The notes under the pieces are model-generated. The model did no database searches and was not told the origin of the DNA. It worked only from the letters and a program-made list of their open reading frames with translations. 64,000 nt of DNA, taken from the NCBI RefSeq assembly GCF_963678975.1, contig NC_089278.1, positions 11,745,479 to 11,809,478 on the forward strand. The letters run 5' to 3'. Both the position numbers and the translations under genes were made by a program. This DNA is from Dysidea avara. Taxonomy: Eukaryota > Porifera > Demospongiae > Dictyoceratida > Dysideidae. Of the stretch, positions 35,891 to 40,100 are shown piece by piece (the stretch's first letter is position 1; each line of letters begins with the position of its first letter).

Positions 35891-37003
35891 CTATCCTGTT
35901 GCTGGTTTATCCATTTGTTGGATGAGTGTTATGTTGTCACCTCTTAGCATGATGCGACCTAGATACGCACACAATAATGTTAAATTCCACGTTCAAAGTC
36001 AACCTCAGGGAGAACCCCTTAACCCCTCCATGAAAATGCCTACAATGTATTAACAGGAACCCAGTATTATAAGGCTTGATCTAAAAGTGTAATAAAAAGC
36101 CAGGGGCTAAATCAACACTGATAGTGGCTACAAATGACATCAGTATCCTGGGATTTAGTCTGTTACAATTAACCATGTGCTAAAAAGGTGGTGGCCATAG
36201 GGTTGGTAACAGCTACAACACAATGAGGTCTTTCTTTGCACATTTACAGTAAGGACGTTACTTGAATCTTGCTTGAATCCACCATATTAAAACAGATCGA
36301 AAATCCTAGTGGGGTGGAAACTTAATGATACAAATAAAAGCTAACAATATCACTGGCAACTAATAACACAACTGGCAACCCAAACATTTTTGAAATGTTG
36401 ACTTTAATTAACCACACAGGGGTAAACAGACACTAAACACTAGAGAAATAACAGGTGCATGTATACAAACACATTGTACACTTGTGCATGCCCAATGCTA
36501 ACCTATTGGTCTTCTAGTCTGCTTTTTTCGATAAACCTCTTCAGCACTATCTAACACAAGATTCATGAACTCATCAAACCCCTAACAGTACACCATGATG
36601 TTGACATAACATGTGTACAAGTTGGTACACTTACTATTACTACTCCTTCAATTCTCATTGTGGTCCTGCCATATAGCCAAATGCTGACTCTCGTTCTCTA
36701 CAAACACAAACATGTATATACATAAAACTTAAAGCTCTTAAAATACAAAGTAGAGTATTTATTCATAAACATAAAGCTTCAATCAATTCCAACTAAAGGG
36801 CATCAACTGAAACACATAAAAACATATGCACAACGTGGTACTTACATTTTGCAAACACCTGAAGATCAGGTTCTAAACACAGTTAAGGAATTAAGCACAC
36901 ATATATGATGCGCTACAATTAGAAACACAACGTTATAAGGCAAGTGAAAGGATACAATCGGCTGAACCATCACTTTCTGCACTTTCTGACCTCTGTACGC
37001 CAT
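35891..37003 (-). CDS. SNRPE: Small nuclear ribonucleoprotein E (Sm E)
   Basis: Five short exons on the minus strand: 37003-36956, 36872-36846, 36697-36635, 36581-36503 and 35958-35891 (TAG), total 285 bp and 94 residues, close to the 92 residues of human SmE. The protein starts MAYRGQKVQKVMVQPI, then NLIFRCLQN, WLYGRTTMRIEGVVI (Sm1 region), GFDEFMNLVLD, and GRIMLRGDNITLI (Sm2 motif). SmE is one of seven proteins of the Sm ring that assembles on U1, U2, U4 and U5 snRNAs. Exon sizes of 27-79 bp put every exon below ordinary single-ORF detection. The start codon lies 130 bp from that of TNPO3 on the opposite strand. The last exon is separated by a 544-bp intron; its frame and motif make it secure. 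Confidence 0.96.
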
Positions 37004-37133
37004 GTTTAGATTGAACTTAGTAAGTTCGAAGGAGCAAAAATTACCACGCCACGTTTATGACAAACACGCGCTGGGAAAAAAAAATTTCAACGTGACGTGG
37101 TACGCACGCGCAGTTAATGTTAAGAATTGTGGC
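37004..37133. promoter_or_regulatory. Putative bidirectional promoter SNRPE / TNPO3
   Basis: Only 130 bp separate the SNRPE ATG (minus strand, 37003) from the TNPO3 ATG (plus strand, 37134), so both 5' UTRs and core promoters must lie in or around this stretch. It contains CG-containing words (ACGCGC, GACGTGG, ACGCACGCGCAG) that stand out from the AT-rich surroundings, as expected for a TATA-less housekeeping promoter. I see no clear TATA box. The transcription starts are not known. Confidence 0.75.
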
Positions 37134-40100
37134 ATGGAGAGACCATCAATTGATGTAGTGCTAAAGGCACTGGCGGCACTCTACAATGGAACTAACCCGA
37201 AAGAAACAGAAGAGGCATCGAAGTGGTTAATGCAACTACAACGATCGGTATGTCTAAATAGTGCCCACCCATTGTGTACTAGAACAATCCTGAAGTACTC
37301 CTTTAGTGTTTGTTTACCCGTACCAACAATTCTTGCTTACATCTCTTGCTAGATTAATGTTAGTCCCTTGACTTGTGGTTAGGGCTAGCTTGTTGTATGC
37401 CCTCCAGTGCCAAAATAATGACTGTGCAATCCATTATGAATTCTTTCTTTCGACCTTATAGTAAAGCCTTTTTGTTATGTGGACATGAGGTATATGTGTA
37501 GGCAGTTACATTAGGTAGATCCATGTACACATAGAAAACTGTGGCCACGTACACTGTTAGCCCGTAGTTCTAGAATTGTGTGGGATTGAGTTCTTAAAAC
37601 CTATTGCAATAAGTGTAGGACAATGGAAAATATTGAGTATGTGCCTTGTTGGTATGTATATCCAGCTACTCCGTTTCTTGCATAGCAGAGTATAGTATGA
37701 GTTGGAATATAGTTAACTTGATAATTTCATGATGTATTCAATGTGATTTCCTAATTGAATGCTCCATTGTGCCTTGGCTTTCATGCTGCAGAAACTTAAA
37801 AACAAGGAAGTGTGAAGGCTTCACATATCAAGTCGTCACAAGACTTTGTTTTCCTACAAGTAGTTAACTGTTCTCTATGCAGTCACTGACTACTGTATAT
37901 ATACAAATTCTTGAGATATGTAATTTTCATGGATTAATGAATTTCAGGGTTTCTGCAGCTTTATTTTATGGATCACTCGCTTTTCACTCAGGCTGTCTAT
38001 TAATTATTTATCAAAGGATGCAAAGTTTGTGGACAGTTAAGCAACCACAAAATCTGCAAACAAAAAATGTCACTCAAAAATTTGTGCGTATATGGTATAC
38101 TAGTATCACACAGTACAATAGCATCAAATTTGATCCAGTCCCTAAAACACTACCATTAATCATCATAGAAATATTTTGTGTAGTAGAATGTACCTTAGCG
38201 TATTAGTTTATTTAATATCAAATCTAAACCAAAGCAGCAAGCTGTAAAAAAAAGTGCGGCCCCCAAAAAGGCCAAGGTGAAAAAAGATGTGAAATCCAAG
38301 GTGGCGGCCAAGAAATGGCTGTGATGGTAGGTTAATGGCAAAAATTTTAATTACGACAATTCAGGTGAATTTGCGTTGCCTCCTCCAAGTTTCACTAGGA
38401 TTCAGCACCAAATTCACCTGAATTGTTGTTATTAATTTTTTTGCCATTTGGTGATTTGTTTCCAGCACATCTTTCTACTGGGTGATTTGCTGTAGCTGAT
38501 TTCTATTGGGTAACTTGTATCTAGCTGATATCTCTACAGGGTGGCTTATTTCTAGCTGATCTCTCTACAGGGCGACTTGTTTCTAGCTGAACTCTCTACT
38601 GAGTGACTTTTTCCTAACTGATTTCTCTACATGGTGATTTGTTTCCAACACATGTACTGGGTGAAGCTGATCTCTATAGGGTAACTTGTATCTAGCTGAT
38701 ATCTCTACGGGTGACTTGTTTCTAGCCGGACTCTCTACAGGGTGATTTGTTTGTAGCTGATCTCTCTACAGGGTGACTTGTTTCTAGCTGAACTCTCTAC
38801 TGAGTAACCTTTTCCTAACTGATCTCTCTACATGGTGACCAGCACATGTACTGGGTGAAGCTGATCTCTATAGGGTAACTTGTATCTAGCTGATACCTCT
38901 ACAGGATGACTTGTTTCTAGCTGATCTCTCTACAGGTTGATTTGTATCTAGCTGATCTCTAACAGGTTACTTGTTTCTAGCTGATCTCTCTTCAGGGTGA
39001 CTGCTCTATTAGGATGACTGCTCTATTAGAGTATCTCGATCTTGCACTTGCTACACCAAGTTGGATTTTGTGTTGTAACTTTGTGGCTTTAAGTCTGATT
39101 CTTCTACACCATTGAAGAACATTTCTAAGATGATTACTCCATCTGTACAGCGATTTTCAAAGCATTACTCCACGCAGTTTCTCTTGTAGGTGTGACAAGT
39201 AGTCATTTTTTAAAATTTTTATTAGCTAATCTTGATTGCATAATTGTTACACACTGTTGGTTTTTCGTTGTATCTTTGTGGTTTTTAGCTTGATTTCTTT
39301 CAAACCACAAAAGGTTTGAGGTTCAATAGTTAACCTATTCACCCACTGATTTTTAGCTTCTTCCCATAAGCGGTTTACCCAATAGGCATGACAACATATT
39401 GGTGTTATTATTTTTTGTGAATAATTGCTAATAACTCCTTCACTGTTTATTTCAGCCAAACTTGGTACCAATATGCACTTTTATACCCCCCTTCTGTGTG
39501 CCAAATTTCAAGGCAATCGGATATGGCGTTCGTGTTTTATGGCAGTTTATGTAAGTGTGCGAAAATAGGAGAAGAAACAAAGAAACTAAGCCAATTTTTA
39601 AAGTTGCATATCTCGGGAACGCTTGAAGTGATTTCACTCAAATTTGGTATGTGGAGTACTGAAGTTGGCGGATGTGTCCACAGCAAAATTCGTCTTGTTT
39701 CGTAAAGGCAGCACAGAGCTACGGAGGTGCGTTTTCTTTCTTCCTATAAATGTACTCACGGTGTTGCGTGCTGGCTTATTGCCGTACCGTGTGTCTTGAT
39801 TTAGTAAAACAAAAAATCACCAACTTGATTTGGTTTACTGACCACAGTCAAATGGCTAGAGGTTAGAGTGATACATCGTGCAACCATAATTTTATGCCAC
39901 AATAACAAACTCACCGGTGGCGCCTTTTGGGTTACTCACTGGTACCTGCCTTCTTCAGCTTGCCATTATCTTTCATCTCCATTTTTACTGCTGTAATCAT
40001 CATCGTCATGCAAGGAAGCCATACTGAGATGCTGATTTTCTGTATTGACACTTTTATTAAAGGTGCCAATGTAGATGTCACAAAACACTTACTATGAGAG

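Follow-up and report, generated by a model that had tools for sequence, protein, structure and literature searches.

When two genes whose products serve one pathway lie head to head across a very short stretch of DNA, it may be asked whether a single promoter drives both and whether the pairing has anything to do with what they encode. The question is raised by SNRPE and TNPO3 in Dysidea avara, which diverge from a 130-bp interval within a window of 64,000 nucleotides (nt), the whole stretch analysed here (assembly GCF_963678975.1, contig NC_089278.1, forward strand, positions 11,745,479-11,809,478). The products of both genes act in the splicing pathway. The original prediction for this DNA placed the two genes on one promoter, through which shared transcription would match the output of core small nuclear ribonucleoproteins (snRNPs) to the import of serine/arginine-rich (SR) proteins. 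Judged from the sequence, one shared bidirectional promoter probably serves SNRPE and TNPO3 and is the best explanation of the layout. By contrast, the pairing of these particular genes looks ordinary, as one splicing-related partner among the ten divergent genes described below is unremarkable.

SNRPE is a complete gene of five exons on the minus strand, running from 37003 to 35891 with GT-AG introns and a first splice donor after 48 coding nt. Its predicted product of 94 amino acids has the Sm fold (Pfam LSM, E 5.3e-18) and matches human SmE best (E 2.4e-38, compared with 2.1e-6 for human SmG), by which the gene is identified as SNRPE. No second copy was seen in a whole-genome protein search, whose four matches all fell at this locus; genome-wide searches covered 550.8 Mb in 108 contigs. 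The neighbouring gene on the plus strand has its first splice donor after 114 coding nt, and its exon 1 by itself matches transportin-3 weakly, over residues 5-40 (E 0.0038). Exon 1 joins exon 2 (41677) in phase across a repeat-containing intron of 4.4 kb, giving LQRS/VHAWE at the junction. When assembled by hand, the exons match human TNPO3 at E 3.5e-160, followed by importin-13 at E 1.1e-42, and on these matches the gene is TNPO3, encoding transportin-3 rather than importin-13. In this model about 120 C-terminal residues are unplaced, and the splice sites of later exons are worked out in part.

It could be argued that one of the two genes is a pseudogene or has been misread, so that there is no functional divergent pair. 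The weak match of TNPO3 exon 1 taken alone, the long intron with its repeats and the unplaced C-terminal residues would be in keeping with this. Nevertheless, the frames are open and their phases consistent in SNRPE and in TNPO3 exons 1-2, SNRPE is the only copy found and the assembled TNPO3 match is very strong, which makes such an error extremely unlikely. The two are protein-coding genes on opposite strands, arranged head to head with their ATGs exactly 130 bp apart, well inside the limit of 1 kb between starts used for divergent pairs. Thus, the predicted arrangement, exon structures and start codons hold up against the GT-AG introns and the SmE and transportin-3 matches. The predicted range, which ended at 37250, takes in TNPO3 exon 1 but not the rest of that gene, whose recognised coding exons reach about 49.1 kb.

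TNPO3 intron 1 also contains a degenerate 31-bp tandem repeat array (38450-39002) and, at 38199-38321, a short Lys/Ala-rich frame (KPKQQAVKKSAAPKKAKVKKDVKSKVAAKKWL) that looks like the tail of a basic protein, possibly a fragment of a retrocopy; a Pfam search with this frame gave no match. A (TG)56 run lies at 41156-41267.

The interval between the genes is CpG-rich and TATA-less. Its observed-to-expected CpG ratio (CpG o/e) is 1.82, with 10 CpG in 130 bp, compared with 0.40 for the window. This places it in the top 0.19% of the window's 130-bp stretches taken in steps of 10 (the rank being computed on 131 bp, with a ratio of 1.84), and the peak is continuous over the whole interval. A scan with 11 motifs found no TATA, CCAAT, GC-box or ETS consensus in the 130 bp. 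It did find an exact TGACGTGG at 37093, a word of the ATF6/unfolded protein response element (UPRE) type that occurs twice in the window. In addition, 21 nt before the TNPO3 ATG there is an NRF1-like 12-mer (37101-37112), which stands alone in the 64 kb at no more than one mismatch to YGCGCAYGCGCR, the NRF1 palindrome consensus. The genome encodes a full NRF1 DNA-binding domain (E 5.2e-93, locus L028). Exact NRF1 words give 721 strand hits genome-wide and the reversed word 162, in a comparison where the control is unmatched for CpG and palindromes are counted twice. An Rfam scan of the window at gathering scores gave no match.

Six weaker matches to the NRF1 domain (29.8 to 32.6 bits, above the cut-off; on C8, C14 and C15) each contain two stops in the same pattern and are probably a repeat family.

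These features are consistent with a housekeeping promoter that is CpG-rich, lacks a TATA box and works in both directions. CG-containing sites for NRF1-type and other factors would probably open a single nucleosome-free CpG stretch, on which two transcription complexes could assemble back to back, one directed towards SNRPE and the other towards TNPO3. Transcription would then start inside the interval, NRF1 would bind there and the two genes would be co-expressed. An alternative is that two separate unidirectional promoters abut within the interval, each with its own factor sites and independent regulation. This would fit an inverted repeat of 14 bp, paired at 13 positions, that places AACGTGRCGTGGTA before each gene in its own sense, 38 nt from the ATG of SNRPE and 31 nt from that of TNPO3, and it would fit the proximity of the NRF1-like site to TNPO3. 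On the other hand, the ATGs, 130 bp apart, leave room for less than one nucleosome and, consequently, one open region probably serves both genes; the CpG peak is also unbroken. Two abutting promoters are therefore unlikely, and the shared promoter is the preferred reading.

Whether the arrangement is peculiar to SNRPE can be asked of its relatives. A Pfam LSM search of the genome at E up to 1 gave 16 exon matches, 13 of them above the curated cut-off. Without SNRPE and one double match to SNRPD1, these leave 14 other Sm/LSm genes, and further ones may have been missed. Reading frames with a minimum length of 42 to 45 codons were sought across about 3 kb at each of the 16 loci. Nine of the 14 genes lie head to head with a neighbouring reading frame, eight at 96 to 201 bp and the ninth at less than 560 bp. 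The count of 14 includes SNRPD3, LSM4, LSM5 and LSM7, for which neighbour orientation is not readable within some 3 kb; LSM1, below the LSM cut-off, lies downstream of RPL18 on the same strand. SNRPG, SNRPD2, LSM6 and SNRPB were named from structure-database matches, and the remaining genes from resemblance. Six partners have family support (RPS29, FKBP, TPR, ARF, cytochrome b5 and RPL18A), the EGF-like partner of SNRPF matches below curated cut-offs, the coiled-coil partner of SNRPD1 matches weakly and the securin-like partner of SNRPG had no family match in the searches. None of the nine neighbours was recognised as a splicing gene. Therefore, divergence from a close neighbour is the usual arrangement for this class here, and the functional match of SNRPE and TNPO3 is compatible with chance.

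The same intervals share the composition of the one under study. CpG o/e is at least 1 in 8 of the 10 head-to-head intervals, compared with 36 of 491 window tiles, and at least 0.75 in all 10, compared with 70 of 489 tiles, the latter cut-off having been chosen after the values were seen. NRF1-like sites with up to two mismatches occur in three of the ten (SNRPE, SNRPD2 and LSM3), in 5 of 489 tiles (Fisher 3e-4) and in 1 of the 70 CpG-rich tiles (p 0.005), and none of 300 shuffles reaches three. The LSM3-RPL18A interval, for instance, holds the NRF1-like palindrome TGCGCATGCGTT. At up to one mismatch, SNRPE is the only interval of the ten with a site (p 0.02 against all tiles), and 12 of 300 shuffles reach that. 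Among these pairs, CYB5D1-NAA38 is likewise a Sm-fold gene diverging from its neighbour, at 99 bp. It differs from SNRPE-TNPO3 in that its two genes may stand in the same order at human 17p13; if so, it would be a very old divergent pair.

Similar arrangements have been described in another sponge. A study of Amphimedon queenslandica (Fernandez-Valverde and Degnan 2016, PMC4773876) counts 11,379 genes that diverge head to head from starts no more than 1 kb apart, divergent genes being very common, and describes a CpG rise and Nrf-1 motifs at promoters. The bidirectional promoters of Amphimedon resemble the interval seen here in having head-to-head genes, close starts (here, ATGs), a rise in CpG and an Nrf-1-type motif (here, an NRF1-like site), and differ in that their commonest promoter motif, Sp1/GC-box, is absent from the SNRPE-TNPO3 interval. 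The Amphimedon study also presents a poly(A)-signal rule, as a statistical trend across many promoters (PMC4773876). In Dysidea, the first AATAAA or ATTAAA on the TNPO3 side comes 2922 nt from the ATG, compared with a mean spacing of 670 per strand in the window. In mouse, according to one study, XBP1s sites are enriched at bidirectional promoters and Snrpe is among the 12-h mRNA-processing genes (PMC6959563), which is taken as a lead only. No record of the SNRPE-TNPO3 pair was found in the open-licence literature searched for bidirectional SNRPE/TNPO3 or for TNPO3 microsynteny, and for SNRPE and bidirectional promoters that literature gave the mouse study alone.

Several points weigh against a shared promoter in the form proposed. 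Either transcript could start elsewhere or carry upstream non-coding exons. The NRF1-like site departs from its consensus at one position and emerged after 11 motifs had been tried; at that stringency, 1 of 10 intervals and 0 of 70 CpG-rich tiles have a site, with no clear difference (p 0.125). The ends of the intervals used in this motif test are less certain for SNRPB, SNRPD2 and SNRPF, and interval lengths of 96 to 399 are set against 130-bp tiles. Elsewhere in the genome, exact NRF1 words lie partly in apparent microsatellites or repeats, as at several of 19 loci inspected. In Amphimedon, moreover, the CpG rise and Nrf-1 motifs mark promoters of all types, with bidirectional and unidirectional ones alike in nucleotide composition (PMC4773876). 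Finally, the SNRPE strand has AATAAA/ATTAAA words at 240 and 595 nt, inside introns and ahead of those past the stop codon. These two words show that poly(A) signals are not depleted on both sides and, thus, the poly(A) rule gives no symmetric support for a shared promoter.

The inverted repeat opens another possibility, namely that the interval bears a dedicated symmetric element, the 14-bp word once per gene. This could be an snRNP-supply element to which TNPO3 gained access by its position, so that in this lineage the import of SR proteins became tied to the production of core snRNPs. The 13-mer ACGTGRCGTGGTA occurs three times in the 550.8 Mb, twice in this interval, a joint rarity that is partly by construction, as the word was derived from these two copies. 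The backward-word control occurs 52 times and has fewer CpG, so it does not measure the expected rarity. By itself the inverted repeat is modest, as 13 of 14 pairings arise in 8 of 2000 shuffles of the interval, and 13 or 14 in 7 of 491 window tiles, a tiling that splits the SNRPE-TNPO3 repeat between two tiles. The shorter, related word CGTGGTW is present in three intervals, namely those of SNRPE-TNPO3, SNRPB and SNRPD2. It is found 5 times per 81 CpG in the intervals compared with 7 per 915 in the window (p 9e-5), and 3 times per 71 once the SNRPE interval is removed (p 0.007), in a comparison that is post hoc and small. ACGT-core words showed no enrichment, with 11 per 81 CpG in the intervals and 128 per 915 in the window. 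We consider a dedicated element of this kind quite improbable.

As a recurrent promoter motif in its exact form, the 14-bp element was tried and rejected: the third 13-mer copy (L004) lies in an open frame that continues across it, where local CpG o/e is 0.6 to 0.84.

It might also be proposed that the pairing was selected because both products serve splicing, with one promoter coordinating the supply of core snRNPs with the import of SR proteins. The common pathway speaks for this, and so does the near-symmetric element, with a copy facing each gene and a 13-mer found so rarely elsewhere. In human, SNRPE and TNPO3 are on different chromosomes and are not neighbours, which speaks against selection. 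The survey of Sm/LSm genes speaks against it as well: 10 of 15 are divergent when SNRPE is included, a splicing-related partner is found in 1 of the 10, and if 1-5% of genes are assumed to be splicing-related, at least one such partner would be expected in 10-40% of sets of ten. Published human data point both ways. Divergent pairs exceed random pairs in the likeness of cellular component and molecular function, and resemble them in biological process, with 0 of 134 RNA-processing members paired with one another (PMC3815023). The present genes are like those human pairs in being housekeeping genes with back-to-back starts and would be an exception to the 0 of 134 if TNPO3 is counted as an RNA-processing gene (PMC3815023). 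Overall, selection for a joint role in splicing appears to be a very doubtful explanation. Most simply, the pairing would be incidental, since Sm/LSm genes in this genome lie head to head with a neighbour more often than not. Of the original prediction, then, the single promoter is well supported by the sequence, with its 130 bp, continuous CpG peak and NRF1-like site. The matching of snRNP output to SR-protein import is not supported, given the nine of 14 genes that diverge from neighbours not recognised as splicing genes.

Table 1. Features of the SNRPE-TNPO3 locus (positions in the window) and head-to-head Sm/LSm pairs elsewhere in the genome
Feature	Position	Strand	Remarks
SNRPE exon 1	36956..37003	-	start codon 37003-37001; translation MAYRGQKVQKVMVQPI; donor GTATCC; SmE match
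SNRPE exon 2	36846..36872	-	NLIFRCLQN; AG/GT flanks
SNRPE exon 3	36635..36697	-	AG/GT flanks; SmE match
SNRPE exon 4	36503..36581	-	AG/GT flanks; SmE match
SNRPE exon 5	35891..35958	-	stop codon TAG 35893-35891; SmE match
Intergenic interval, putative bidirectional CpG promoter	37004..37133	no strand	130 bp; CpG o/e 1.82; 10 CpG; GC 0.42
Inverted-repeat arm AACGTGGCGTGGTA, SNRPE sense	37042..37055	-	38 nt from SNRPE ATG; 13/14 paired with other arm
Inverted-repeat arm AACGTGACGTGGTA, TNPO3 sense	37089..37102	+	31 nt from TNPO3 ATG; contains exact TGACGTGG at 37093
NRF1-like site	37101..37112	+	one mismatch to YGCGCAYGCGCR; sole site with at most one mismatch in window
TNPO3 exon 1	37134..37247	+	start codon 37134; MERPSIDVV...LQRS then GTATGT; transportin-3 residues 5-40
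TNPO3 exon 2	41677..41808	+	VHAWEVADQ...; AG/GT flanks; transportin-3 match
Further TNPO3 coding exons, approximate boundaries	42338..49142	+	aligned with human TNPO3 as far as residue 803 of 923
RPS29, SNRPB			head-to-head, <560 bp; SNRPB first exon unplaced; 399 used in motif test
FKBP, SNRPD2			head-to-head, 122 bp; first exon tentative
SNRPG, securin-like frame			head-to-head, 97 bp
SNRPF, EGF-like			head-to-head, 133 bp; first exon very short, less sure
ARF, LSM8			head-to-head, 201 bp
Coiled-coil frame, SNRPD1			head-to-head, 173 bp
TPR protein, LSM6			head-to-head, 97 bp
Cytochrome-b5 protein (CYB5D1-like), NAA38 (LSMD1)	L042:1347-1450		head-to-head, 99 bp
RPL18A, LSM3	L045:1237-1334		head-to-head, 96 bp; LSM3 exon below LSM cut-off

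Other features of the window lie at some distance from the pair. A fibronectin III frame (1675-5500) recurs almost unchanged, with one copy at 1675 (fn3 E 7.3e-12) and the other at 5098, which suggests a recent duplication. On the minus strand, a MOCS1-like gene spans 19250-29000, with a MoaC match at E 2.3e-50 and MoaA-type parts below cut-offs. Fragments at 21760-24200 resemble a tyrosine-recombinase mobile element (Phage_int_SAM_1, E 5e-5), and a WH1/EVH1-like frame (63468-64000; E 1.5e-4, just under the cut-off) lies at the window's right-hand end.

SNRPE-TNPO3 adds one more pair to the known class of divergent promoter pairs. If the two genes were indeed co-regulated, they would offer a simple example from nature of core snRNP supply being matched to the import of SR proteins. 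Of greater use is the base rate: 10 of the 15 Sm/LSm genes found diverge from another reading frame across a short shared interval. Consequently, it would take expression or conservation data to justify reading design into a functional match between neighbours.

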